DNA of 64,000 nucleotides from an uncultured Alphaproteobacteria bacterium (lineage in GTDB: Bacteria; Pseudomonadota; Alphaproteobacteria; Rhodobacterales; Rhodobacteraceae), in contig CACBBC010000002.1 in the NCBI GenBank assembly GCA_902537415.1, positions 1 through 64,000 of the forward strand. The letters run 5' to 3'. Shown here one piece after another: positions 42,130 through 59,802 of the stretch (its first letter is position 1; every line of letters begins with the position of its first letter). The notes beneath the pieces are model-generated. The model ran no database searches, was not told the origin of the DNA, and saw only the letters and a program-made list of their open reading frames with translations. The translations under genes were made by a program, and so were the position numbers.

Positions 42130-43437
42130 ATGAAATTTATAAGGACTAAAGCAGTCGCACTTTTCTTGCTCTTTTTCTCGATATCGCCATCCTTCGCCAA
42201 AACAGAGATTCATTGGTGGTATGGAAATAGTGGGTTCTTGGGAGACGTAATTATAGAAATAGCGAAAAGATTTAATGAGTCTCAAGACGATATCGTAGTT
42301 ATTCCTACTGGCAAAGGAAGTTATGAAGATAACTTATCAGCTACAATTGCAGCTTACAGAGCTGGAGACCATCCACACTATACACAGGTCTACGATGCAG
42401 GCGCCGCTATCATGGTTGCTCAAGTGAAAAATGGAGTGGTAATTGGTTTTGAAGAAATGGGGGAAAAATACGGCATAGACGTAAATGCAGACAACTACAT
42501 TCCCCAAGTAAAAAACTTTTATGCCGATGCTGATGGCAAAATGATTGGAGTACCCTTTAATAGTTCAACATGTATCATGTATGCAAACATGGATATACTG
42601 AAAAAAGTTGGAGTTGACGTACCGACGACTTATGAGGAATTTGAAGAAATAGCTCAAAAGATTAAAGACGCAGGATACATTCCGCTCGTTCAAAGTCATG
42701 ATCCCTGGATTTGGACTGAAAACTTTTTTTCAAGGCACAATTTATTAATGACAGATGGAAACAATGGATTTGATGACGTTCCAACCAAAACTTTGTTCTC
42801 TGAAACTCCGGAGTTTATAACTCATTGGACAAAGGTAAAAGAATGGCATGATAAAGGTTGGTATGCCTACAAGGGAAGAGGATGGGGTGATAACCAAGCT
42901 CCGTTTAACGCAGGTGAAGCGGCTTTTTGGTTTGGCTCTTCTGGTTCTTTTGGTGGAATAAAGGATTTACCAATTAATTTTACTACCAATCAAATTCCTT
43001 ACTGGAGCTCAATTACAGGCGGCAAGGCATATCCCACTTTTATTGGTGGCGCGGCAAACTGGATCTTAAATGGCCATACTGAAGAGGAATACGCTGCGCT
43101 AGCAAAGTTCATCAAGTTTATGGGCTCACCCGAAATGGACCTTTATTATCATAATACTACTGGTTATACAGTCGTGACCAAAGGTGGTGGACAGCTTGCA
43201 GAAACAATAAATTTTTACAGAACTTCACCGTATCATAAAACCGCTCCAGAACAGTTAAATCTGGAAGGCGCAACTATTCCTGGTGGATATAGAGCAGGAA
43301 ATTGGCCACAAATAAGGGAGGTTATTTATGAGAATTTCCCAAAAATCTTGACTGGTGAGCTTTCAGTAGAAGAAGCTATGAAAAGAACCGATGAAGGAGC
43401 ATCAAAATTGCTTGCTCAGTTTGCTAAGACTTTGTAA
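42130..43437 (+). CDS. ugpB: sn-glycerol-3-phosphate ABC transporter substrate-binding protein
   Basis: Signal peptide, IHWWYGNSGFLGDVIIEIAKRFNESQ, followed by UgpA/E/C-like genes. Confidence 0.92.
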   Translation: MKFIRTKAVALFLLFFSISPSFAKTEIHWWYGNSGFLGDVIIEIAKRFNESQDDIVVIPTGKGSYEDNLSATIAAYRAGDHPHYTQVYDAGAAIMVAQVKNGVVIGFEEMGEKYGIDVNADNYIPQVKNFYADADGKMIGVPFNSSTCIMYANMDILKKVGVDVPTTYEEFEEIAQKIKDAGYIPLVQSHDPWIWTENFFSRHNLLMTDGNNGFDDVPTKTLFSETPEFITHWTKVKEWHDKGWYAYKGRGWGDNQAPFNAGEAAFWFGSSGSFGGIKDLPINFTTNQIPYWSSITGGKAYPTFIGGAANWILNGHTEEEYAALAKFIKFMGSPEMDLYYHNTTGYTVVTKGGGQLAETINFYRTSPYHKTAPEQLNLEGATIPGGYRAGNWPQIREVIYENFPKILTGELSVEEAMKRTDEGASKLLAQFAKTL

Positions 43438-43455
43438 GCCAATCAAAAATAATAT

Positions 43456-43484
43456 GGAGGGAGGGGTTTTCCTCCCTCCTTTTT
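43456..43484 (+). terminator. Intra-operonic terminator-like hairpin between ugpB and ugpA
   Basis: ggagggagg ggtttt cctccctcc ttttt: 9-bp stem plus T5. Confidence 0.85.
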
Positions 43485-43488
43485 GCTA

Positions 43489-44367
43489 ATGAAAAAAGTA
43501 CAATTTAAATCCAAATATACCCAATATATTTTTTTAGCTCCAACGCTAATAATTATATCAATTTTTCTTTATCTTCCTATAGTGCAAACGTTTAGAGATG
43601 CATTCACGACACAAGATGCGTTCGGCTTCGGTAGGTTTTTTGCAGGATGGGACAACTTTAAATTTGTGCTATCAGATCCCTCATATCTTGTAGCACTTAA
43701 ATTCACTTTTATTTACATATTTGTCATAACTGTTATCTCTTGCTCTTTAGGGCTGTTATTGGCGGTTCAGGCCAATAAAGTTATACATGGAAAAAGCGCT
43801 TACAAGACCCTTTTGATTTGGCCGTATGCTATAGCTCCTGCAGTTGTTGGGGTAACTGCTCAATATTTTTTTAGCGAAAGGTTTGGTATCCTATATGCTC
43901 TATTTAATTCTCTATGGGGGTTTGACTGGACCGCAAATATTTTTGATGCCTATATCTACTTATTCATAGCGGGATCTTGGAAACAAATCAGCGCGAACTT
44001 TATTTTTTTTCTTGCCGGGTTGCAAACGATACAAAAATCAGTTATCGAAGCTTCTTTAATTGATTGCAGAAGCAGTCTGCGTCGGTTCTGGACAATCACT
44101 TTCCCCCTACTAATGCCAACAACGTTCTTTCTCGTGATTATCAATATCACTTATGGTTTTTTCGACACCTTCGGGATTATTGATACTACGACGATTGGAG
44201 CGCCTTCAGGGGAAACTAAAACTCTAGTATATAAAGCATATATAGACGGTTTTCGAGGATTAGATTTGGGAGCTGCGGGTGCTCAGTCAATAATTATGAT
44301 GCTATTAGTACTCATCATAACAATAATTCAGTTTCGTTACATAGAAAGGAGGATTCACTACAATTGA
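43489..44367 (+). CDS. ugpA: ABC transporter permease UgpA
   Basis: IFLAPTLIIISIFLYLPIVQTFRDAF; IEASLIDCRSSLRRFWTITFPLLMPT. Confidence 0.92.
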   Translation: MKKVQFKSKYTQYIFLAPTLIIISIFLYLPIVQTFRDAFTTQDAFGFGRFFAGWDNFKFVLSDPSYLVALKFTFIYIFVITVISCSLGLLLAVQANKVIHGKSAYKTLLIWPYAIAPAVVGVTAQYFFSERFGILYALFNSLWGFDWTANIFDAYIYLFIAGSWKQISANFIFFLAGLQTIQKSVIEASLIDCRSSLRRFWTITFPLLMPTTFFLVIINITYGFFDTFGIIDTTTIGAPSGETKTLVYKAYIDGFRGLDLGAAGAQSIIMMLLVLIITIIQFRYIERRIHYN

Positions 44368-45218
44368 TGATCAATCGTCTTACTCAAATGTTTGCACACT
44401 TTATATTACTATTGGGAGTTTTACTTATGGTAATTCCTATTTGGCTAGCCTTTACAAGCTCAACCCATGATAATGTGACCCTAATAACAGAAGGGATGCA
44501 GTGGTACCCAGGACCTCTATTTATCGAAAATTATGACGAGGTGTTGAACGAAAAAGGGGGGTTTTCAGAAGAAATAACAGCTACTGGCATGCTGATAAAT
44601 AGTTTTATAATGGGGCTAGGGATCGCCACACTTAAGGTTATTATTTCGATGATGGCTGCTTATTCACTCGTTTATTTCCGATTTAGATTAGCCACACCCA
44701 TTTTCTGGTTTATCTTCATAACTTTGTTAGTTCCCTTAGAGGTCAGAATATTTCCCAGCTACAAAATTGTATCTGATATAGGCTTGACAAACAGCTATAC
44801 TGGCCTCGTACTCCCATTAGTTGCCTCGGCAACTGCAGTCTTTTTCTTTAGACAATTTTATAAGTCAGTTCCTGATGAACTTCTTGAGTCAGCCAAGCTT
44901 GATGGAGCTAATAGCTGGAGATTTTTTATTGACTTTTTAGTGCCCCTTTCAAAAACGATGATTGCAGCGATGTTTATTTTTATGTTTGTTTTTGGATACA
45001 GCCAATACTTATGGCCTCTTTTAATGACTACTGATGAGAAGTACTGGACAGTTGTAATGGGGATGAAATTAATCTATGTCGAATTATACGAAGGTGTGTC
45101 TTTACCTAGAGTGGGGCAAAGGTTTGCGTATATTATACTATCAATAATACCGCCCGTTCTCATTGTTGTTTTGTTGCAACGTTGGTTTATTAAGGGTCTT
45201 ATACAAACGGAGAAGTGA
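44364..45218 (+). CDS. ugpE: ABC transporter permease UgpE
   Basis: LLESAKLDGANSWRFFIDFLVPLSKTMIAA; LVPLEVRIFPSYKI. Confidence 0.92.
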   Translation: MMINRLTQMFAHFILLLGVLLMVIPIWLAFTSSTHDNVTLITEGMQWYPGPLFIENYDEVLNEKGGFSEEITATGMLINSFIMGLGIATLKVIISMMAAYSLVYFRFRLATPIFWFIFITLLVPLEVRIFPSYKIVSDIGLTNSYTGLVLPLVASATAVFFFRQFYKSVPDELLESAKLDGANSWRFFIDFLVPLSKTMIAAMFIFMFVFGYSQYLWPLLMTTDEKYWTVVMGMKLIYVELYEGVSLPRVGQRFAYIILSIIPPVLIVVLLQRWFIKGLIQTEK

Positions 45219-46274
45219 ATGAGTTTTATAAACCTTAAGAACGTTGTAAAAGTATATCCAGATGGAACCCAGGCTATTTTCAACTCTTCTTTATCGATTG
45301 AGAAGGGTGAATTAGTTGTCTTTGTTGGGCCCAGCGGTTGTGGAAAGTCAACATTACTTAGAATGATAGCTGGGTTAGAAGACGTAACGGAGGGAGAAAT
45401 AGACCTAGATGGAAACAGAATTAATGAAATAGACCCCTCTGAGAGGGATATAGCAATGGTTTTCCAGAATTATGCCTTATACCCCCATATGTCAGTCTAT
45501 AATAATATTGCTTATGGCCTAAGAAGTAGAGGAATAAAAAAACTGGAAATAGAAGCACAGGTTACAAATGTTTCAGAATTACTTCAAATTGGCGATCTAT
45601 TGAGTAAAAAACCAGGTCAACTATCAGGAGGACAAAGACAACGCGTTGCCATGGGGAGAGCAATAGCTCGTGATCCAAAAGTATTTTTATTCGATGAACC
45701 ACTTTCAAATTTAGACGCAAAACTACGGGTCCAGGTGCGACTGGAAATAAAAAAATTACAAAGAAAAATGGGAACGACTAGTATTTTCGTTACTCATGAT
45801 CAAACTGAAGCAATGACCCTGGGTGATCGATTAGTTGTTATGAATAAAGGAGTGATGGAGCAAGTGGGTACTCCAATGGAAATTTATTATCACCCCAAAA
45901 CTAAATTTGTAGCAGAATTTATCGGCACTCCTAGCATGAATTTCATCACAGGCAGTATAAAAGATAAGACCTTTAAAGCTTCGAGTTTCGCTGTACCAGC
46001 TAAATATGAAGATAAAGATGATGTTATCCTAGGAGTGAGGCCTGAAGATATATCAATCACTAAAGCTACAACCGGTGTCAAATGTAAGGTGGAGCTTATT
46101 GAAAAACTTGGTTCGAGTACCGTCATATACTGTGTTGATATGAAGGAAAATCAACTTTGCGTAAGTACTCAATCACGTGCTAGCGTGGAGGTAGGAGACA
46201 CCATACACATATCTACAAATAATAAAGCCTTGCATTTTTTTGATAGGGAAACTTCTAAAGCGTTAACTAAATAG
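45219..46274 (+). CDS. ugpC: ABC transporter ATPase UgpC
   Basis: GPSGCGKSTLLRMIAGLE, LSGGQRQRVAMGRA, LFDEPLSNLDAKLRVQ. Confidence 0.94.
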   Translation: MSFINLKNVVKVYPDGTQAIFNSSLSIEKGELVVFVGPSGCGKSTLLRMIAGLEDVTEGEIDLDGNRINEIDPSERDIAMVFQNYALYPHMSVYNNIAYGLRSRGIKKLEIEAQVTNVSELLQIGDLLSKKPGQLSGGQRQRVAMGRAIARDPKVFLFDEPLSNLDAKLRVQVRLEIKKLQRKMGTTSIFVTHDQTEAMTLGDRLVVMNKGVMEQVGTPMEIYYHPKTKFVAEFIGTPSMNFITGSIKDKTFKASSFAVPAKYEDKDDVILGVRPEDISITKATTGVKCKVELIEKLGSSTVIYCVDMKENQLCVSTQSRASVEVGDTIHISTNNKALHFFDRETSKALTK

Positions 46275-48203: not shown

Positions 48204-48615
48204 CTACAGCTTTTCGACCATCAGATGCCAATGCCATGAGTTTGGTTTATCATGTTCTTGCATAGTAAGCCGATTAAATTCAAAATCCTTAAATATCGAC
48301 GTTAATTCGTTGGCAGTACAATAATAATGAGGATGAGCCTTATCGCTTTCAGAGTCTGAATTGACAATCCAAGTGTTTGTGGAAATCTCTTTGCAATCGA
48401 ATTCACTTTTTAAAAGGTCAATTCTTTTCTTAGGGAGCATGGTTCCATGAAACGTGCCTCCAGGTTTCAGTACTCTTTTTATCTCATTTACAGTATAGAT
48501 TAAAATATTGTGATTACCATGGTAAATCACATTCCACGATAACACGTGATCGAAGTAATCATTAGCAAAGGGTAATTGATCCATTTTTCCAAGTACTGTT
48601 TTTATAGAAATACAA
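48204..48615 (-). pseudogene. C-terminal fragment of class I SAM-dependent methyltransferase
   Basis: VLGKMDQLPFANDYFDHVLSWNVIYHGN...RVLKPGGTFHGTML, lacks the N-terminal SAM-binding half. Confidence 0.75.
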
Positions 48616-48853
48616 AATCTAATTTCTTTCCTCTCAAAGCCTCTGCTGTTGCAGTTTGATTGCTTACGGCAAAAAATTCAAAAGTATCACCAGTGGCTTT
48701 TTCTAAAGCTTCCTTAAATGGTCCCCACTCAGAGATAAGAGCATCCATTCCTTCAATATCAGTAACAGCCATTTTGTAATTTTTCGCTGAAACTACTGAG
48801 CCTATCCCTAGGGATAAGCATATTAACAATATAGTTTTAATAACAAATTTCAT
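48602..48853 (-). pseudogene. N-terminal fragment of PhnD-like phosphonate-binding protein
   Basis: MKFVIKTILLICLSLGIGSVVSAKNYKMAVTDIEGMD...ATAEALRGKKLDFVFL*; SD GGAG before ATG 48853; truncated at ~83 aa. Confidence 0.75.
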
Positions 48854-48975
48854 AATTAACTCCTTGCTTTTCCTTACCATGAAAGAGTTCATTAACGCTT
48901 TTGTGGCAGAAACCTAATAAATTTTTGACAATTTTATACCCTCATAAGATATCCACGATATTATTTCTTTTTCAG

Positions 48976-49278: not shown

Positions 49279-50112
49279 CTAAGACCAATCATAGGTTTGG
49301 CGCCTGAGATATTCTGTGACCACATTCCGGTTTTCCATTTCAGCTAGTTTGGAACTGTGTATAGAGGGACGCATCGTGACAGTTAAATTTGTCCCCATTC
49401 TTCTACAAATTTCCCTAAACATAAGTGAATAACCAAGCGTAAAGCTTATTTTTCTCACAATTTGAAATAACGCTGAATTACGTCCCTCAAAGTAGAACGG
49501 AATAGTAGTTGTGTCAGGCTGCAACGCTAATTTCGCAACAAATGTTTTCCACGGCGCATCACTTGCAGTTCCAAATATATTTGGCGCTAATGATATGGCA
49601 CCTGCTGGGAAGATTATAAGTGCACCACCATTTCTGAGGTGTTCCAACGCTCCACGGCGAGACTCCATATTTGTTTCAAGCGCAATTTTCGTCTCTGCAA
49701 AATCTATTGGCAGGATTTTGTCCATTACCGCTGGTGCCTGTCTCAATACCCTGTGGGTAATGATTTTATAGTCCTGCCGTACTTCGGCCATAATTGAACA
49801 TAAGGCAAGTCCATCTATTACACCATATGGATGATTAGCGATGGTCACGACCCGTCCAGTAGACGGTATGGACGCCATTATTCCATTTGAAACTTCTCGA
49901 CGGATGTCTAGTTCGATACGCAGTCGGTCAAGTGCATCTGACCAAAAATATTCTGGATTTAGATTATCATTTATATAGTCAAAATACAGTTTTTCTATAC
50001 GCGGTTGCCCCGTTAATTTTTCTAAGTAGCGGATTATTTTATTAGAAATTACACCCATTTCTCCATCGGCGAATGAAAACACAGGGTGTGTCTGACTTCT
50101 ATTTTGCAACAT
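49279..50112 (-). CDS. PlsC/OlsA-like lysophospholipid acyltransferase
   Basis: VVTIANHPYGVIDGLAL (HxxxxD-type: NHPYGVIDG), GALIIFPAGAIS, TIPFYFEGRNS. Confidence 0.85.
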   Translation of the reverse strand: MLQNRSQTHPVFSFADGEMGVISNKIIRYLEKLTGQPRIEKLYFDYINDNLNPEYFWSDALDRLRIELDIRREVSNGIMASIPSTGRVVTIANHPYGVIDGLALCSIMAEVRQDYKIITHRVLRQAPAVMDKILPIDFAETKIALETNMESRRGALEHLRNGGALIIFPAGAISLAPNIFGTASDAPWKTFVAKLALQPDTTTIPFYFEGRNSALFQIVRKISFTLGYSLMFREICRRMGTNLTVTMRPSIHSSKLAEMENRNVVTEYLRRQTYDWS

Positions 50113-50166
50113 CTAAACTCCTGCCTCAGGGATAGTTAAATGATGTAACAAATAATTAATGAATTT

Positions 50167-50184
50167 ATGAAAAATTAATGACAT
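50167..50184 (-). promoter_or_regulatory. Candidate Pho box upstream of acyltransferase
   Basis: Minus: ATGTCAT-TAAT-TTTTCAT, 55 bp before the start codon. Confidence 0.55.
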
Positions 50185-50275
50185 CCACGTGAGTAAGTTC
50201 TCAAGTTTTGATTGTACTTTTTCAATCAAATTAGATTGAACAATATAATTACTAACTTAAATGATGGTTTAAAAA

Positions 50276-50304
50276 TTTTCATCAAATTGTCATCAATCTT
50301 TAAC
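50276..50304 (+). promoter_or_regulatory. Candidate Pho box upstream of sRNA candidate
   Basis: TTTTCAT-CAAA-TTGTCAT-CAAT-CTTTAAC in 11-bp phase. Confidence 0.6.
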
Positions 50305-50314
50305 ATTTAAAAGA

Positions 50315-50388
50315 TAAATGATGTTCAAATACACGCATGTATTTCCCTCCCAACTGGGCCGTTGTAAGCAGGCGGCCCTTTTCTTTTT
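50315..50388 (+). ncRNA. Candidate Pho-regulated anti-SD small RNA
   Basis: Hairpin AAATACA-CGCA-TGTATTT (50327-50344), CCCTCCC, hairpin GGGCCG-N11-CGGCCC (50356-50378), TTTTCTTTTT. Start is approximate. Confidence 0.55.
50356..50388 (+). terminator. Rho-independent terminator of sRNA candidate
   Basis: GGGCCG TTGTAAGCAGG CGGCCC TTTTCTTTTT. Confidence 0.85.
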
Positions 50389-50532
50389 GATACATTGATG
50401 TAGCAGCTAGTCAATTTCTAAAATTGGACTTTAGAAGCGTATTGTAAGACTATTTTTAATTTTTATTTGACTGAATTATTTTTATTGCTAAATTTTGGCG
50501 CGATTAAATTTAAATCTTCAAAAGGAAGTAAA

Positions 50533-50955
50533 ATGTCGAAGGAAAGAGACGCTGATACCATCACTGAATTAGGCGAAGACGGCAAATTACATAATATAAC
50601 TACTAAAGCAGGAAGACTAGCAATGGAGTTAGCGTCTGAAAAAAAGAGGCTTGCTCAAGAGCTAGAGGAATTACAAGGCGAGTACGATGACATTAAACCT
50701 CTTACGCCTACTGGTACAAGAGATTGGTATGTTAAATGGGGAGCCATGATATTGTGTGTATTAGGAGTATTTCTTACATCAGGAAAAATGTATATTTTCG
50801 GGCAATTGTGTTATTTCTTTAGTGCCATCGGATGGATATATGTCGGCATGCAATGGAGCGACAGAGCACTAATGATTGGATCCGCGATATGTGGTACTGC
50901 AGTTGCCATGCTGTTGATAGACAATCCCGACTTGTATCTGCTTCTTTCAAGATAA
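50533..50955 (+). CDS. Hypothetical membrane protein with coiled-coil N-terminus (start 50533 preferred)
   Basis: aaaggaagtaaaATG; MSKERDADTITELGEDGKLHNITTKAGRLAMELASEKKRLAQELEEL... then ~3 TM segments. Confidence 0.75.
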   Translation: MSKERDADTITELGEDGKLHNITTKAGRLAMELASEKKRLAQELEELQGEYDDIKPLTPTGTRDWYVKWGAMILCVLGVFLTSGKMYIFGQLCYFFSAIGWIYVGMQWSDRALMIGSAICGTAVAMLLIDNPDLYLLLSR

Positions 50956-51017
50956 ATACTCCTATTGCTATTTTTAAAAAAATAGAATTAGTATCGCAAA
51001 AAAGGTTTTTAAAAGGA

Positions 51018-51791
51018 TTAATTTACCTCTTCGTTATGGATAGTATAATTCTCACCATCCAGTAGGATAATGCCATATCCCGAATTCTCACCTTTGGCAT
51101 ATTCTACTCTATCGGCTTTGAACTTTAAGACCATTTGCTGATTTATGCTTTTGAACGTGGAGAAATTATATCCTTCGTAAAGACCACATATACTTCTATG
51201 TATGTGACCAGATATTAGATGGTTTACATTATTGAAATTTTTTATAGTTGAAAAAAAATCGTGGGAATTTTTTAGTTTTAGTTTGTCCATAGCCTGCATT
51301 CCCGTGTTAAAAGCGGGATGGTGCATAAACAAAATTACTTTTTTATGATCCGCTTCTTTAAGTTTTTGACTCAACCAGTCGAGTCTTTTTTTACACAAGT
51401 AACCACAGCTTTTGGGTATGTCATCGTGAGGATCTTTAAGCGTATCTAAGAATATAAAATCAAGATTTTCATAAGCCTCACTACTCTGTAAGAATCCATT
51501 ATGATCTGGTTGGTAGTATGGAAATACATCGAGGAAGTTCTTTCGGTTATCGTGATTTCCAAGCATAAATTTTATGGGTCTATTTATTACCGAGACCAAA
51601 TTTCTTAAGGCTTTATATTCTTCAATTTTACCACTATCCGCTAAGTCGCCTGTAAAGACTAGCGTATCAAAATCATTATGATTGCCTTGCAAGTGCAGTA
51701 TAGCTTTCTCAAGTTTTTGAGATGATTTTTTTAAACTTGGTTCATCAGCAGAGTTTAAGTGAATATCTGAAAAGACTATGATTTTTTTCAT
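51018..51791 (-). CDS. Calcineurin-like phosphodiesterase (GpdQ/CpdA-like)
   Basis: SDIHLN, FTGDLADSG, MLGNHDNRK, FMHHPAF, SGHIHRS. Confidence 0.9.
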   Translation of the reverse strand: MKKIIVFSDIHLNSADEPSLKKSSQKLEKAILHLQGNHNDFDTLVFTGDLADSGKIEEYKALRNLVSVINRPIKFMLGNHDNRKNFLDVFPYYQPDHNGFLQSSEAYENLDFIFLDTLKDPHDDIPKSCGYLCKKRLDWLSQKLKEADHKKVILFMHHPAFNTGMQAMDKLKLKNSHDFFSTIKNFNNVNHLISGHIHRSICGLYEGYNFSTFKSINQQMVLKFKADRVEYAKGENSGYGIILLDGENYTIHNEEVN

Positions 51792-52069: not shown

Positions 52070-53236
52070 TCACTGGCCTTCATGAAAGATATGTGGACTT
52101 TGGGGAGAATTAGGAGTCCAAACCCTTTGAATTATAGGAAAATTATTTTTTACATCAAAAAGAAGTAAATCAGCTCGCATACCAACCTTAATCAAACCGC
52201 GATCATTGAGATTAGCTGCTTTTGCTGGTGTCTCAGTAACCGCCTTTATTCCCTTTGCAAAATCTCCCAAAATATCTCCAAGTTTTACCGCTCCCATTAG
52301 CAGTGAAGAAGGCATATAATCCGATGAAAGAATATTACAGCAACCCATGGAAACAAGGTCCTTAGCGGCGACATTTCCCGAGTGGGACTCCCCTCTCAGA
52401 ATGTTTGGTCCTCCCATGATAATATTAATTGATGATCGATTTAATACCTTTGAAGCTTCAACAGTTGTTGGAAACTCGGCAATTTTACATCCATTTTCAA
52501 TTGATGTAATTGCATCATTCTCTGTCGTGTCGTCATGACTTGCGAGAATAGCGCCAAGTCTTTTATTAGCACTTAAAGTTGCGGCATGGTTTCTATCTCC
52601 CCAAGCCTTTTTTATTTTATAAAGACGTTCAAAATGATCTTCCAAATCTTTTGGACTCATAGAGTATTTTCCCTTTAAATACTCTGCCATTTTATCTAAG
52701 TCTCTAAATTGCTTTTGGCCAGGAGTATGATCCATTAAACTAACTATTCCAACTCTATCTTCTGGGGTAAACTCTTCCAATTCAATTTCCAAAGTTTCAG
52801 AACAAACTTCTGCTCTAAGATGCGTAAAATGACTTATTTTCAGGCTTTTCTCTGCTCTCAGCTCCTTAATGCTGTCCGTAACTTGCCTAGCATATTTAAG
52901 ATAGTTACCCCGTTTATCTGACACTATCGAACCAACCCGCAATGCGTCAAAAACAGTCGTAATACCAGCACTTTCTAGTTCTCTATCATGTGATAAAATC
53001 GCAGCTCTTATTGGCCATTTAACATTTGCTCTTGGTTGCATATGTCTTTCCAAATTGTCTGTGTGTAGTTCAACCAGGCCTGGTGATAAATAATTTCCAT
53101 TACAATCGAAAGAACCGCGTATAAATCCTTTTCCGGAGTTAACCTCTTTAATGACCCCATCTTCTACCCTGATGCTTCCGTTTACTACTTCGTTCTCCAG
53201 AATTAGACGAGCATTGCTTAAAATAAATTCATGCAT
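52070..53236 (-). CDS. phnM: PhnM, ribose 1-methylphosphonate 5-triphosphate diphosphatase
   Basis: YLSPGLVELHTDNLERHMQPR, MDHTPGQKQF, LASHDDTT, SSDYMPSSLL. Confidence 0.95.
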   Translation of the reverse strand: MHEFILSNARLILENEVVNGSIRVEDGVIKEVNSGKGFIRGSFDCNGNYLSPGLVELHTDNLERHMQPRANVKWPIRAAILSHDRELESAGITTVFDALRVGSIVSDKRGNYLKYARQVTDSIKELRAEKSLKISHFTHLRAEVCSETLEIELEEFTPEDRVGIVSLMDHTPGQKQFRDLDKMAEYLKGKYSMSPKDLEDHFERLYKIKKAWGDRNHAATLSANKRLGAILASHDDTTENDAITSIENGCKIAEFPTTVEASKVLNRSSINIIMGGPNILRGESHSGNVAAKDLVSMGCCNILSSDYMPSSLLMGAVKLGDILGDFAKGIKAVTETPAKAANLNDRGLIKVGMRADLLLFDVKNNFPIIQRVWTPNSPQSPHIFHEGQ

Positions 53237-53312
53237 ATAAATTCACACGTTTGACTTAAAAGTTTCATATAAATATTTCAAATTTTTTGTACTCTGTAAT
53301 TAGGACATTTTT

Positions 53313-54005
53313 ATGACAAATTATTCCAGATACGCAATTTATTTTTCTCCCTATCCAGATACATTTCTCGATAAAGTTGGGTCTCGATGGTTAGGCTGGA
53401 ATCCAAAGAAAGGAAAGATTACCAACCACAAGAAAATAAAAAATCCGAAATTTGTTGACTTAAAGTCTATCACGGAAAAAGCAAGGATATATGGCTTACA
53501 TGGCACACTCAAAGCACCATTTGTACTAAAAGAAAAATATTCATACAAAGATCTAATTAGCGATGTAGAATTAATTTCAAAGCGACATCGTAAGTTTATA
53601 ATCCGAAATCTAGTCTTAAAAAAGCTTGGCAGCTTTTATGCTTTAGTTCCTGAAAGAAGCACTAAGGCACTAAAATCTTTAGCAGATGATTGCGTTTCAT
53701 CTCTAGATAAGTTTAGAAAACCTCCTTCATCTACAGAACTAGAAAAAAGAAGATCTAATGGACTTGATTTTCAGGAGGAGGTAAATTTAAAGAAGTGGGG
53801 TTATCCATATGTGTTCAATAAATATAAATTTCATATTACATTAACTGGAGAAATAAGATTGGGTGAAGAGAAAAATATTCGAGAAACAATAGAATTAAAT
53901 TTTCAAAAAGTTATCGGATATCCCTTACCTTTTTTAGATATCTGTCTTTTTGGGCAAAGGGATGATAGCTACTTTTGTGAACTGAAAAGATTTTCTCTGC
54001 TTTAA
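53313..54005 (+). CDS. DUF1045 2H-phosphoesterase of phosphonate operons
   Basis: Two HxT motifs: YGLHGTLKAPF and KFHITLTG; RYAIYFSPYPD start. Confidence 0.88.
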   Translation: MTNYSRYAIYFSPYPDTFLDKVGSRWLGWNPKKGKITNHKKIKNPKFVDLKSITEKARIYGLHGTLKAPFVLKEKYSYKDLISDVELISKRHRKFIIRNLVLKKLGSFYALVPERSTKALKSLADDCVSSLDKFRKPPSSTELEKRRSNGLDFQEEVNLKKWGYPYVFNKYKFHITLTGEIRLGEEKNIRETIELNFQKVIGYPLPFLDICLFGQRDDSYFCELKRFSLL

Positions 54006-54526
54006 TGCATTACAGATAATAATTGAATAACTGCTTTATCTAGATCATGCTCATTGTTTATAATGATTGAGCCCGTTGGAATATCAAATTTCGCCCTTTT
54101 TAACCTTAGTTGAATATCCTTTGCATTTTCTCTAGCTCTTTTTTTCAATCTTTCGAGAACGGTTTCTTCTTTAGCATCAATGTAAATTATTTTTAAATCT
54201 GGAAATTGCTGCTTATATTCCTTAATAGCATGTCTAGATCCATTGAAAATTACGTTTGTTCCCTTATTAAGGTGATATATAATATCAATAGGTATCCCAT
54301 AAAAGTTATTATGCGCATACCAATGAATAGCGACTCTTTTTTCTTTTAATAAAATATCTATTTGAGACTGATCCACTTTAATAAAGTCTTCGTTGTCGAC
54401 CTCAGCATTCCTAGAAATATATCTTTTAGGGAAATATGCATCGACTTTATTCTTAGCAGCATTAAGAATTGAATCTTTCCCCACTCCAGAAGGGCCTACC
54501 ACTGTAAATAATGTTCCTTTACGCAT
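54002..54526 (-). CDS. phnN: Ribose 1,5-bisphosphate phosphokinase
   Basis: FTVVGPSGVGKDSIL P-loop in phn cluster. Confidence 0.93.
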   Translation of the reverse strand: MRKGTLFTVVGPSGVGKDSILNAAKNKVDAYFPKRYISRNAEVDNEDFIKVDQSQIDILLKEKRVAIHWYAHNNFYGIPIDIIYHLNKGTNVIFNGSRHAIKEYKQQFPDLKIIYIDAKEETVLERLKKRARENAKDIQLRLKRAKFDIPTGSIIINNEHDLDKAVIQLLSVMH

Positions 54527-54538
54527 AATAGATTTTTC

Positions 54539-55213
54539 TCAGCTTGCTGAAAAGTTGCTTACATCTATTTCTCGATCACACACTTTATCCCTTACTTCTT
54601 TGTCATGAAAGATACCGAGTATTGCTGACCCTTTTTCTTTTTTTTCTGAAATCATATCCATGACAATTTTTTTGTTTTCACGATCGAGGCTCGCCGTCGG
54701 CTCATCCAAAAGAAGCAACTTGTAGTCTTTAGAAAAGCCAATAGCGATATTTACCCTTTGTTGTTCCCCTCCTGAAAAAGTCAGTGGGGAGAGGTGCCAT
54801 AACTGAGAGCTTAAATTTAGCCTAGACAATAATGTCTCAGCGATATCCTTCGCTCTGGCGCGACTTTCAAATTGATCAAGAAGAGGTTCCATAACCAAAT
54901 CTATGGTGCTTACTCTCGGTAAAACTCTTAAAAATTGACTTACATACCCCATTTTTTGTTTTCTTAATATCGACATTTCAATGGCTTTTAAATCAAGGAT
55001 ATTTTCCTTATCTATATAAATCTCTCCTTCTGCACATACATAATTACCGTAAATCATTCTCATTAAAGTTGATTTGCCACAACCAGAGTTACCTATCAAT
55101 GCAACACATTCCCCCGAATTAACATTAAAGCAAGCATCTCTAATAACTGAAAATTTCCCTTTGTCTAAGTTCTTTAGATTGAAGGATTTTGCAACATTTT
55201 TTACTTCCAACAT
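54539..55213 (-). CDS. phnL: PhnL ABC-type protein
   Basis: GNSGCGKSTLMRMIYGNY, FSGGEQQRVNIA. Confidence 0.95.
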   Translation of the reverse strand: MLEVKNVAKSFNLKNLDKGKFSVIRDACFNVNSGECVALIGNSGCGKSTLMRMIYGNYVCAEGEIYIDKENILDLKAIEMSILRKQKMGYVSQFLRVLPRVSTIDLVMEPLLDQFESRARAKDIAETLLSRLNLSSQLWHLSPLTFSGGEQQRVNIAIGFSKDYKLLLLDEPTASLDRENKKIVMDMISEKKEKGSAILGIFHDKEVRDKVCDREIDVSNFSAS

Positions 55214-55215
55214 TT

Positions 55216-55986
55216 TTACACCTTTAGTATTGAGGAGACTAGTAATTGCGTGTAGGAATGCTGTGGATCATCCAAAACTTGGTCGGTTAATCCAGTTTCA
55301 ACAATTTTGCCATTTTTCATAACAATCAATCTATTCGCCATGAACCTTGCAACTGCGAGATCATGCGTTACGATTATTACTGACAATCCTAATTCTCTAA
55401 CCAAAGATCTTATAAGATCAAGTAATCTTGCTTGGACAGATACATCAAGCCCACCCGTAGGTTCATCCATAAATATTAGCCTAGGTTTCGTTATAAGATT
55501 TTTAGCAATCTGAAGTCTTTGTTGCATTCCACCAGAAAAAATACTCGGTTTGTCATCCAGTCTGATTGCATCTATTTCAACCTTTTCGATCCATTCGGTG
55601 GCTTCAGCCCTAATTTGGGAGTAATTTCTATACCCTATTGCCATTAGTCTTTCGCCAATGTTCCCTCCAGCACTCACTGCCATTCTAAGACCATCTCGAG
55701 GATTTTGATGGACAAAGGCCCACTCGGTTCTCAGTAGGTTTCTTTTTCTGGGTTCCGGCAAAGACAATAGATCCAACCAATTATTATCTCTATCCAAATA
55801 TGTTATATTACCACCATCTGGTACCAAGCTTCCAGACAAGCAATTTAGAAGAGTTGATTTGCCAGAGCCAGACTCTCCAACAATTCCAACGACCTCACCA
55901 GTGTAAAGCTCTATACTTAAGTTGTTGCAAGCATACACATCGCCAAATTTCTTATTTATAGCCTTCGCTTTTAAAATCTGTTCCAT
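55216..55986 (-). CDS. phnK: PhnK ABC-type protein
   Basis: GESGSGKSTLLNCLSG, FSGGMQQRLQIAKNL, EWAFVHQNPRDGLRM. Confidence 0.95.
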   Translation of the reverse strand: MEQILKAKAINKKFGDVYACNNLSIELYTGEVVGIVGESGSGKSTLLNCLSGSLVPDGGNITYLDRDNNWLDLLSLPEPRKRNLLRTEWAFVHQNPRDGLRMAVSAGGNIGERLMAIGYRNYSQIRAEATEWIEKVEIDAIRLDDKPSIFSGGMQQRLQIAKNLITKPRLIFMDEPTGGLDVSVQARLLDLIRSLVRELGLSVIIVTHDLAVARFMANRLIVMKNGKIVETGLTDQVLDDPQHSYTQLLVSSILKV

Positions 55987-55989
55987 TGT

Positions 55990-56826
55990 TTAACTTTTTT
56001 GACTATTGCAGTAATCACTATCTGAACATGAAAACATTCTAGTTCCCTTATCATCAATAACCACTTCATCGAGATATGTATTGGTGGCACCACATATTTC
56101 ACAAGTCTTCTCGGCTCTTGAGGCTTCAAATGGATAATCTTCAAAATCAAGACTTATAACCTTAGTATATGGAGGAACTGCGTAAATCCTTTGTTCTCTC
56201 CCAGCTCCAAAAAGCTGAATTGCCGAGCAAAAATTCATTTTTGGGTTATCAAATTTTGGTGTAGGTGATGGATCCATTATATAACGATCGTTAACTTTTA
56301 CTGGATAAGCGTATGCTGTGGAAATCTCCCCGTTAATAGATATGTCTTCATATAATTTAACATGCATCAAGCCATATTCTTCTAATGCGTGCATAACCCT
56401 TGTTTCGGTCTCTCTAGGCTCTAAAAATCTTAAGGGCTCTGGTATTGGGACTTGATAAACGAGTATTTGATCTTCTGATAAAACTTGTTCGGGAATGCGG
56501 TGTCTGGTTTGAATTACAGATGCTTTTCCAGTGTTTTCAGTGGTTTTTACACCAGTTACCCTTTCAAAAAATTTTCTTATAGAGACTGCGTTGGTTGTGT
56601 CATCTGAACCCTGATCTATGACCTTCAATACATCCGTTTCTTGCAAGCATGCTGCTGTGACCTGAACGCCGCCAGTACCCCAACCATAAGGCATTGGCAT
56701 TTCCCTACTTGCAAAGGGAACCTGATATCCTGGAATGCATATCGCTTTTATTAGAGCCCTTCTTATCATTCTCTTGGTTTGCTCATCAAGGTAAGCAAAA
56801 TTGAAATCCTCTTCGGAGTTACTCAT
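55990..56826 (-). CDS. phnJ: C-P lyase radical SAM subunit PhnJ
   Basis: CEIC-x21-C-x5-C near the C-terminus; VPFASREMPMPYGWGTGG. Confidence 0.97.
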   Translation of the reverse strand: MSNSEEDFNFAYLDEQTKRMIRRALIKAICIPGYQVPFASREMPMPYGWGTGGVQVTAACLQETDVLKVIDQGSDDTTNAVSIRKFFERVTGVKTTENTGKASVIQTRHRIPEQVLSEDQILVYQVPIPEPLRFLEPRETETRVMHALEEYGLMHVKLYEDISINGEISTAYAYPVKVNDRYIMDPSPTPKFDNPKMNFCSAIQLFGAGREQRIYAVPPYTKVISLDFEDYPFEASRAEKTCEICGATNTYLDEVVIDDKGTRMFSCSDSDYCNSQKS

Positions 56827-57905
56827 CCTTTTTTTGCCTCAAAAGCTGTTTTTCTTATCTTTCTAATTAGCTCCAGTTCTGCCTGAAAATCGACATAATG
56901 AGGAAGCTTAATATGCTCTACAAAACCAGTCGCTTGAATATTATCTCCATGGTACAGAACAAACTCTTCATCTTGAGCGGGAGCACCATCGCTAACCTCT
57001 CCCAATTCTTTCCAACGTAGAGCGCGATCAACTAAAGCCATCGATATCGCTTTCCTCTCCGATTGACCAAAAACAAAACCATAGCCTCTAGTAAATTTAG
57101 GGGGGTGGGTCTTTGAGCCCAGAAATTGGTTAACCGTCTCGCATTCTGAAATCTCTATCTCAGCTATCTCTATATTAAACCCTATCTCTGGGATTTCAAA
57201 TTCAACAGATATAAGTCCTATTCTTAGCTCACCAACGAATGGATGATTTCTTCCGAACCCCCTTTGGGTTGAGTATGCCATACCTAATAAAAACCCTTCA
57301 TCGCTTCGAGTAAGAGCCTGTAGCCGCAATGCTCTATTAGCAGGAATTTCCAAAGGCTGTCGAGTGAGATCTGGCGACTCCGCTTCACTAGATGATGTCT
57401 CTTCTGTCTCAATAATTCCTTCATTATTTAGGAACTGAGTGACGTGTTGGAACATTTGTTCAGTATCTTTTCCAGGCTCAAATTCATCGATGCTGCCATC
57501 TGCTAATAGTTTGAAATCTAAAAGTCGATGAGTGTAATCAAAAGTCGGTCCAAGAAGCTGGCCTCCTGGAATGTCCTTAAACGTCGCGGATATTCTTCTT
57601 TTAGCAATCATTTTGTCCGTATTTATAGGCTGCCCAACTCCAAATCTCGGTAAGGTTGTTCGGTATGCTCTTATTAAAAAAATCGCTTCGATTAAATCTC
57701 CTCTAGCTTGTTTTATTGCTAAAGAAGCAAGCTCAGGATCAAATAGCGAACCTTCAGCCATCACTTTTGCTATTGATAAAGATAATTGAGTCTTTATTTG
57801 ATCGACACTCAGATCTGTGACTTTTCTGTCTCCTCGACGTTCATCCTCCAGCCACCTATGTGCATTATCAATCGCTCTTTCGCCTCCTTTTACAGCTACA
57901 TACAT
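56823..57905 (-). CDS. phnI: C-P lyase subunit PhnI
   Basis: MYVAVKGGERAI, RGYGFVFGQSERKAISMALVDRAL. Confidence 0.97.
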   Translation of the reverse strand: MYVAVKGGERAIDNAHRWLEDERRGDRKVTDLSVDQIKTQLSLSIAKVMAEGSLFDPELASLAIKQARGDLIEAIFLIRAYRTTLPRFGVGQPINTDKMIAKRRISATFKDIPGGQLLGPTFDYTHRLLDFKLLADGSIDEFEPGKDTEQMFQHVTQFLNNEGIIETEETSSSEAESPDLTRQPLEIPANRALRLQALTRSDEGFLLGMAYSTQRGFGRNHPFVGELRIGLISVEFEIPEIGFNIEIAEIEISECETVNQFLGSKTHPPKFTRGYGFVFGQSERKAISMALVDRALRWKELGEVSDGAPAQDEEFVLYHGDNIQATGFVEHIKLPHYVDFQAELELIRKIRKTAFEAKKG

Positions 57906-57906
57906 A

Positions 57907-58470
57907 TTATGTCTCTACCATTGTTGTTCTAGGCAGTCCCATAACAAAATTTTCTTTTGCCAAAAAAATATCAACTCCTAAAGGAAAACTGATAGCACTT
58001 TCTCTTTCAATAATCTTTTCCGGGAGCTCTACATGAAGCGTCTCTTTAATCCCTGGTCCATTTAGAGAAAAACTTTTTACATCTTTGCTTGCATTTTCAA
58101 TCACAATATTGGCCGACCTGTCGGGATACTCGTCCGTACCAATAGGAAATTCGTGAAAAGGTAGTAGTTCCTCTATATGCCCCACTGCGAAATCAACATT
58201 TTTATCGCCAGAAATTTTTGCACCGGTATAAAAATTTATCCAATCCTCGACATTTTTATTTCGAAAGGTCTCTCCTAAAAAAATCTTAGTATTAAAATCA
58301 CAAAAAACTAATATAAGCGTTGCACCAGCGATAGATAGAGGGGTGGGAAGTCCATCAATGACCTGAAAATTCTGAATTTTTCCTGGCATTGCCATCGCTT
58401 TCAACGCTATCCTAAAAGCTCTAGCAGCATCCTTGGACTGGTCTTGGAAGAAGGGAAGCGGATTTGTCAT
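57907..58470 (-). CDS. phnH: C-P lyase subunit PhnH
   Basis: AFRIALKAMAMPGKI, FPLGVDIFLA; order G-H-I-J. Confidence 0.95.
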   Translation of the reverse strand: MTNPLPFFQDQSKDAARAFRIALKAMAMPGKIQNFQVIDGLPTPLSIAGATLILVFCDFNTKIFLGETFRNKNVEDWINFYTGAKISGDKNVDFAVGHIEELLPFHEFPIGTDEYPDRSANIVIENASKDVKSFSLNGPGIKETLHVELPEKIIERESAISFPLGVDIFLAKENFVMGLPRTTMVET

Positions 58471-58913
58471 TTTTCGTCTTCTCCACGCACAAGAGTAAAA
58501 AAATCCACCTTTGTTTTTTCTGCTTTTCTTTTAATTAAGTCATGTCTTTTTTTCTCAATTTCTTTTAGTTTTATTACTATTTTACTTTCAATTAAGGTCC
58601 TTTTATCGCTTTGCATTAAAGCGTCACATAGCGCAGCAACTGTCGACTTCTTTTTACTTCTACCTTGCACATATCCATGACCAACTAACTTACCGTCTTC
58701 TAATTGAATAGAGCATCGCGTAACGGAAATTTCGCCTGCATTAAATTTTTGCCCAGTGTTTCCAATCCTTGCTGTCGCCATAATTGTGCCTATTTCCGGT
58801 TTTCTCAGATAAGTATAGCTCGGATCTAACCCAGTAGACTCATACAACCCAACGAGATCGGATTCAGATGATTTTGCTAAATAGCTCAACCATTTAGACC
58901 TGACTAGTGACAT
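58467..58913 (-). CDS. phnG: C-P lyase subunit PhnG
   Basis: LRKPEIGTIMATARIGNTGQKFNAGEISVTRCSI, GHGYVQGRS. Confidence 0.96.
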   Translation of the reverse strand: MSLVRSKWLSYLAKSSESDLVGLYESTGLDPSYTYLRKPEIGTIMATARIGNTGQKFNAGEISVTRCSIQLEDGKLVGHGYVQGRSKKKSTVAALCDALMQSDKRTLIESKIVIKLKEIEKKRHDLIKRKAEKTKVDFFTLVRGEDEK

Positions 58914-59001: not shown

Positions 59002-59769
59002 TTAAGTTCTATGAGCTTTTTCTTTAAGAAAAATCCTTATTTGCTCCAAATTGAACTTTGCATCATTATCACCATTATCAGCAGCCGACAAATACCACTT
59101 CATTGCCTCGGAAAAGCTTTGCTTCGTGCCGATTCCCATATGATGCATGTAGCCTAAATTAAATTGTGCCTCTACTAAGCCTGATGAGGCAGCTTTTTCA
59201 TACCAATAGAGAGCTCTCTTGAGGTCTTGCTTGATGCATTTACCTTTTTCAAGTAATAGCGCCAAGTTATATTGTGCATGATAATCTCCACCCTCGGCAG
59301 CCAAAAGGTACCAATATTTTGCTCTTGTAATATTTACTGGAGAGCCTTCTCCACTCTCGTACATGAGAGCCACATTGTATTGAGCCACCGAATTACCTAA
59401 CCTTGCAGCATCCAAATAAAGGTCAAGAGCTCTACCTTTGTTTTTTTCTAGCACTAATCCTTGATCATAAAAATATGCCAAGTTAGTCATAGCTTTAGGG
59501 TGCTTTTTTTTTGCTGCTTTTTTATACCATTTTATAGCCACTTCATTATTTTGTAACACCAACAGCCCTTTATCATACGCCCTTCCTAATTTGTATTGAT
59601 ATTCCGGATGGCCCGAATAGGCCATTACCTTATTGAAGCTGAGCTCCGTGAAACTAATATCATCTTTCTCTTTTTTTTTACCAGTTAAATCGATCACTAA
59701 AAGCGAGACAAATGCTATGAATACTAAAATGTATGGGGATTTCTTAGCGTATTTTTTTGAATAATACAT
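59002..59769 (-). CDS. Sel1-like repeat protein with N-terminal membrane anchor
   Basis: Repeated AMKWYLSAADNGDNDAKFNL-type Sel1 units. Confidence 0.9.
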   Translation of the reverse strand: MYYSKKYAKKSPYILVFIAFVSLLVIDLTGKKKEKDDISFTELSFNKVMAYSGHPEYQYKLGRAYDKGLLVLQNNEVAIKWYKKAAKKKHPKAMTNLAYFYDQGLVLEKNKGRALDLYLDAARLGNSVAQYNVALMYESGEGSPVNITRAKYWYLLAAEGGDYHAQYNLALLLEKGKCIKQDLKRALYWYEKAASSGLVEAQFNLGYMHHMGIGTKQSFSEAMKWYLSAADNGDNDAKFNLEQIRIFLKEKAHRT

Positions 59770-59773
59770 TATG

Positions 59774-59802
59774 ATGACATTTATATGACAGAAATATGAC
59801 TA
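59774..59802 (-). promoter_or_regulatory. Triple-half-site Pho box at Sel1 gene start
   Basis: Minus: TAGTCAT-ATTT-CTGTCAT-ATAA-ATGTCAT. Confidence 0.8.

Follow-up and report, generated by a model that had tools for sequence, protein, structure and literature searches.

A conserved small-RNA gene, probably PhoB-controlled and probably a diverged sibling of alphaR8/MmgR, in a Rhodobacteraceae phosphorus cluster

Positions 50276-50388 (+) of the window, by which we mean the whole 64,000-nucleotide stretch of DNA analyzed here, are a conserved small-RNA (sRNA) gene. Its sequence suggests a free-standing gene with a transcript of ~62 nt, predicted at 50327-50388, that probably belongs with the alphaR8/MmgR sRNAs (Rfam family suhB, RF00519) as a diverged sibling and is probably controlled by PhoB. 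The window makes up the first 64,000 nucleotides of contig C2, which belongs to a 1.6 Mb genome that is 65% complete. A preliminary description had proposed an sRNA behind a Pho-type promoter at this site, and this reading was strengthened by the conservation footprint, the rank and neighbors of the Pho box, genes for PhoB and Hfq, a held-out covariance model and copies at other loci. As to the class of the RNA, the sRNA reading fits, but the set of alphaR8/MmgR siblings had been missed.

The Pho box (50276-50304, +), recognized by matrix rank and in orthologs and paralogs, comprises three half-sites in 11-bp spacing: TTTTCAT (50276-50282), TTGTCAT (50287-50293) and the weaker CTTTAAC (50298-50304), just as they had been described. 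The putative -10, TAAATG (50315-50320, +), lies 10 bp past the third half-site and is assigned from sequence and spacing only; from it, a transcription start at 50326-50327 is predicted. The transcript would begin with a 5′ hairpin, AAAUACA-CGCA-UGUAUUU (50327-50344, +), followed by the unpaired stretch CCCUCCCAACU (50345-50355, +; as DNA, CCCTCCCAACT), which is presumed to be an anti-Shine-Dalgarno-type seed. It would end in an intrinsic terminator (50356-50388, +), a GGGCCGUU/GGCGGCCC stem-loop with a U-tract, divided into the GGGCCG...CGGCCC stem-loop at 50356-50378 and the T-tract TTTTCTTTTT at 50379-50388. The terminator was supported by fold and alignment and was the sole match in a terminator search of 49800-50900, where shuffles average 0.4. 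No open reading frame of at least 80 aa was found inside 50276-50388, in line with the earlier description. The minimum free energy (MFE) structure of the 62-mer is the two-hairpin fold, at -17.4 kcal/mol. Its folding z of -1.96 is only mildly unusual by itself, and one ortholog reached -3.29. As a single-sequence z of only about -2 means that folding energy alone is no proof of an sRNA, the comparative evidence is the stronger.

That evidence came from eight same-genus genomes, including the window's own, with identities of 91-100%; the AG-numbered genomes of the genus we take to be single cells from the surface ocean. All elements were kept at the locus in each of the eight. Variable columns numbered 1 of 29 in the Pho box and 0 of 11 in the unpaired stretch, and 13 of 76 and 16 of 144 in the flanks. 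Mean pairwise differences were 0.009 for the Pho box, 0.024 for the 5′ hairpin, 0.000 for CCCTCCCAACT, 0.047 for the terminator stem-loop, 0.025 for the T-tract and 0.214 for the spacer and -10 region, with 0.079 and 0.055 in the flanks. This footprint matches exactly the parts named in the preliminary description: the AAATACA-CGCA-TGTATTT hairpin, which is in the MFE fold, the unpaired stretch and the terminator hairpin were kept in all eight syntenic orthologs, CCUCCC included. Its AT-rich -10 candidates fared less well, in that 10 of 22 columns of this region vary and only the TA at 50315-50316 is constant. This TA, ten bases past the third half-site, is common to all copies, orthologs and paralogs, and fits a -10.

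Three diverged window-type copies were found elsewhere (G004:C32, G005:C68 and G020:C8). In these, the hairpin arms AAAUACA/UGUAUUU have become AAAUACG/CGUAUUU through compensating changes, and the terminator is nearly identical. Formal covariation is limited to a single pair in which both positions changed, and its excess over shuffles is not convincing. The seed CCCUCCC is constant in the syntenic orthologs only and reads CCCUUAA, CCCUUCA or UCUUCC in the diverged same-lineage paralogs. A fourth copy type (G003, G004, G006, G008 and G016) has lost half of the terminator stem and part of the Pho box, and looks decayed.

The surroundings of the sRNA are one large phosphorus cluster, in which gene names outside the profile matches were read from translations. 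On one side is a divergent acyltransferase gene (49279-50112, −; PF19576/PF01553); on the other are a DUF6552 gene (50533-50955, +; by profile), a metallophosphoesterase gene at 51.0 kb (read from its translation) and the C-P lyase genes phnM, phnN, L, K, J, I, H and G (52070-58913, −; profile and translations), with a DUF1045 gene on the other strand and Pho boxes before phnG and phnM. This is the location that the preliminary description placed between Pho-linked lipid and C-P lyase genes. A second phnM (phnM2, from its translation) lies at 61.3 kb, and an operon of the ugpBAEC type for a glycerol-3-phosphate ABC transporter (read from translations) at 42130-46274 (+); ugp is a classical Pho-regulon operon. 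Past the window end, C2 carries phnC/D/E, phoR, pstSCAB, phoU, phoB, and a putative glycosyltransferase and PlcP, again as read from translations. At 48602-48892 (−), an open frame covers only positions 7-56 of the 242 of PF12974, the start of a phosphonate-binding protein, and looks like a truncated phnD-like gene.

The position of the element, upstream of the DUF6552 gene and on the same strand, is what could be expected of a mere 5′ leader, attenuator or terminator of a neighboring gene. We consider this extremely improbable. The upstream gene is divergent, so that there would be no + strand transcript to terminate. As regards INDEPENDENCE from neighbors, genome G011 keeps the DUF6552 gene and a similar upstream region without the sRNA, and other copies of the sRNA adjoin unrelated genes, e.g., bioY, on other contigs. 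These two observations indicate that the element is not the leader of the DUF6552 gene, which is a neighbor and not a gene that it serves; the preliminary description had itself named a leader of the gene at 50533 as the alternative, which is now disfavored.

Control by PhoB is suggested by the promoter and by the genes around it. Our Pho-box matrix, (C/T)TGTCA(T/C) pairs 11 bp apart, was fixed before the search and came from general knowledge, not from this organism. On it, the site at 50276 (+) is the 4th-best two-half-site on both strands of the 64-kb window, and 4 sites this good were observed where 0.03 are expected in 83.5 kb of Markov sequence. The sites ranked above it precede phnG and, as two overlapping sites, a Sel1-repeat gene; further sites within the best dozen precede phnM2, the acyltransferase gene and phnM. 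A second Pho-box-like site near the sRNA (50167-50184, −), the 7th-best of the window, faces the acyltransferase gene. Neither pstS nor plcP has a site among the best matches, which indicates that the matrix is incomplete. PhoB is encoded 30 kb off, at C2:80422-81099, above the equivalog cut-off; a sensor kinase gene, phoR by its translation, lies next to pstSCAB-phoU-phoB, and an Hfq gene is on contig C10 of the same genome. As expected of a Pho-regulon member, the sRNA has a conserved Pho box at promoter distance, and it is probably controlled by PhoB. Among triple Pho half-sites, the strongest in the window (59791-59802, −) lies directly before the Sel1-repeat gene (59002-59769), a candidate Pho-regulated gene by its sequence.

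The same RNA could be expressed from a promoter that is constitutive or under another OmpR-type regulator, with the likeness to a Pho box being that of an AT-rich promoter with TCAT repeats. The weak third half-site, the poorly conserved -10, the general origin of the matrix and the paralogs, which retain the Pho-box shape yet score just 5-9, are all compatible with this. It is unlikely, given the excess of such sites over chance, the C-P lyase genes behind the other best sites, and the fact that the Pho box is the most constrained DNA apart from the seed.

The relationship to alphaR8/MmgR emerged from covariance searches. An Rfam scan of the window at gathering cut-offs gave one tRNA only. 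The Rfam search advised in the preliminary description was informative when run permissively, with RF00519 the top of 4227 families for the sRNA stretch, albeit as a weak match (20.2 bits, E 0.021) well below the gathering cut-off of 41 bits. Window-type copies score 20-27 bits on this family, the best same-lineage copy reaching 26.6, and a further RNA of the window's genome, sibling B, scores 35 bits, with 31-42 bits across its copies, over the cut-off once. The unpaired stretch CCCUCCCAACU corresponds to the alphaR8 core UUUCCUCCCU (PMC12559287); relative to this 10-mer, the window core UUUCCCUCCC keeps CCUCCC, has an extra C and has the last U replaced. The exact 10-mer is present in sibling B of G005. 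Two features of alphaR8, the 3′ intrinsic terminator and a weak hairpin 5′ of the core, are present in the window RNA. The formylglutamate amidohydrolase neighbor, typical of the family but not universal, is replaced by the acyltransferase and DUF6552 genes; none was seen beside siblings B-E either, where neighbors were judged without a profile search. By two tested features, the window RNA is outside the strict alphaR8 family. We describe it as alphaR8-like, and not as a member in the strict sense, because it scores below the RF00519 cut-off and has an altered core.

Two further covariance models were built: R1, from window-type copies only, and the held-out R2, from the canonical alphaR8 RNAs of the class and siblings B and C, with no window-type copy. 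On the 64-kb window, R2 gave the window copy as its best match (25.7 bits, E 4.3e-5, or ~1e-3 per genome), although its E-values are rough and some of these bits come from the terminator; a bare terminator at another place in the window reached 16.4 bits. A terminator with a C-rich linker might also have arisen by convergence in an unrelated sRNA, as the score under the Rfam cut-off, the other 5′ arm sequence and the shifted core could suggest. We regard this as quite unlikely in light of the R2 result, the recovery of sibling B in four genomes by R1, and the linker end ACUGGGCC, which is identical in the window RNA and siblings B and C. A diverged sibling of alphaR8/MmgR is thus the probable identity of the RNA. 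Among 385 alphaproteobacterial genomes, a pattern of Pho box plus CCUCCC matched, besides the window, at five sites distributed over three other genomes, and R2 recognized none of these as alphaR8; the combination of Pho box and alphaR8 was found in none of the 384 other genomes.

A genus-wide search with R2 showed that the window's genome (G000) contains five types of sibling: A, the window copy (C2 50327-50388, +); B, at C29:555, which RF00519 also found, at C29:549-618; C, at C3:52663; D, at C7:15661; and E, at C1:45746. All share the layout of a hairpin, a CCUCCC-containing linker and a terminator. Their 5′ hairpin arms, picked by eye, differ between siblings, pairing at 100% of positions with their own partners and at 43% crosswise. 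The promoters of B-E are unrelated to the Pho-box promoter of A (Pho-matrix scores of 15.7 for A and at most 2 for B-E). A direct repeat with a period of ~11 bp, TTACGTTAACGTCACGTTA, is common to the promoters of B and E and was absent from the window; C and D have promoters of other kinds. Immediately 3′ of sibling B, in G000:C29 and other copies, is a conserved stretch, GGAACAG(T/C)CTG...TTTCTGTGGAATTTTCCTCCCCAACTGGTACA...CACAGACTTGTTCC, with complementary ends; judged by its sequence, it is possibly another structured RNA carrying CCUCCCC.

Several of these copies lie near a dispersed repeat with the core TTCTTGGAGTGTGCAGCAGATGG, conserved over ~50 bp (e.g., G000:C29:776-793). Of the genus genomes, 14 of 16 contained it, as against 0 of 9 others searched, and in several places its copies follow one another at 0.5-1.5 kb with single small genes between them, including those for DUF4440/SnoaL-like, ABM-like, BioY, DUF1330 and DMSP-lyase-like proteins. 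The repeat lies ~190-370 bases from B copies (most at 195-200) and 46-68 bases (~65) from diverged A copies; it was absent near siblings C, D and E, and at two B loci. Sibling B and the diverged A copies, whose spacing from the repeat is fairly constant, appear as if carried in these arrays. Between the DUF6552 and metallophosphoesterase genes, an insert at G004:C4:56152-56268, and in the same place in G003, G006 and G008, holds the repeat, one small gene and a second, decayed sRNA copy that lacks half of its terminator stem; the window genome is without it (50955 to 51018). An integron was considered and rejected, as the integron-integrase profile TIGR02249 gave nothing over its cut-off in 22 genomes, with weak matches, XerC/D-like by size, also in all control genomes, and the repeat folds no better than shuffles. 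The arrays look like gene-cassette arrays. Tentatively, alphaR8-type genes of this genus may be copied and moved in such arrays, which lack a recognizable integron integrase, so that one ribosome-binding-site seed acquires different promoters; the window copy may then be the one that the Pho regulon took over and that became fixed in its gene cluster.

We consider it likely that the RNA is an alphaR8/MmgR-like sRNA that is induced by PhoB and represses mRNAs by Hfq-assisted pairing to ribosome-binding sites. At low phosphate, phosphorylated PhoB would bind the Pho box and transcription would start at ~50327. The 5′ hairpin and terminator would protect the sRNA, Hfq would present the unpaired CCCUCCCAACU, and CCCUCCC would pair with G-rich (GGGAGG-type), purine-rich Shine-Dalgarno regions, blocking translation. 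A general alphaR8-type repressor seed would thereby come under phosphate control, while its siblings carry a seed of this kind behind promoters of their own. Given its own phosphate-starvation switch, the sRNA probably silences other genes when phosphate is short. A search for CCCUCCC targets, suggested earlier, was run on the window: counts of GGGAGGG and GGGAGG equal chance and do not indicate targets. Of the duplexes predicted at gene starts of the window, that with the ugpB-ugpA spacer (-16.9 kcal/mol) is in the top two, although such duplexes are not trusted. This spacer holds a strongly folding intercistronic hairpin, GGAGGGAGGGG-UUUU-CCUCCCUCC (~43456-43480, +), with one arm like the sRNA seed and the other complementary to it. 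It was rejected as a conserved target, as three relatives are >99% identical there and give no signal of covariation or constraint, and the coincidence is kept as a lead.

The sRNA might alternatively act on RNAs rather than ribosome-binding sites, with CCCUCCC competing with siblings B-E for targets or for a G-rich sponge such as the ugpB-ugpA hairpin. The Caulobacter RNA CrfA, a G/A-rich sponge of alphaR8 siblings (PMC12559287), offers a precedent, and the ugp duplex and hairpin are suggestive. We think this very unlikely, as GGGAGGG is no more frequent than by chance, the spacer has no constraint signal and its hairpin may be a plain intercistronic stabilizer. A PhoB-wired sibling, found in single-cell genomes from an uncultured alphaproteobacterium, would show how one conserved repressor seed is tied to different nutrient signals, and would provide a concrete route for phosphate stress to lower the translation of other functions.

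Compared to alphaR8/MmgR of Sinorhizobium meliloti, the window RNA has the same weak 5′ hairpin, unpaired pyrimidine CCUCCC core, ACU linker, GGGCC-type terminator and similar length, along with an hfq gene in its genome. It differs in its RF00519 score (20.2 vs 41 bits), in having UUUCCCUCCC for UUUCCUCCCU, in the lack of a formylglutamate amidohydrolase neighbor and in its Pho-box promoter; mmgR is reportedly under NtrC and AniA control. CcsR or "cuckoo" RNAs, encoded 3′ of DUF1127 genes and with CUCCUCCC in the loops of their hairpins, are likewise alphaproteobacterial sRNAs with an exposed CCUCC-type motif, whereas the window motif is a linker between hairpins and has no DUF1127 neighbor. 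Pho-regulon promoters share its TGTCAT-type half-sites, 11-bp spacing and proximity to phn, ugp, pst and phoBR genes, but here the promoter drives a noncoding RNA and its third half-site is degenerate. According to PMC12559287, the only characterized alphaR8 members are MmgR and, since 2025, Caulobacter SisA, both tied to carbon and storage metabolism; in the available part of that paper, no Pho-box-driven sibling is among those described. According to the same paper, SisA-D of Caulobacter crescentus are alphaR8 siblings that have the 10-mer core in common while their promoters are unrelated, are linked to carbon starvation via the sponge CrfA, and include in SisA an RNA whose repression of mRNAs was shown experimentally and attributed to the anti-Shine-Dalgarno 10-mer core. 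The window's genome resembles this arrangement in having several siblings, each with its own promoter, that share an anti-Shine-Dalgarno core.
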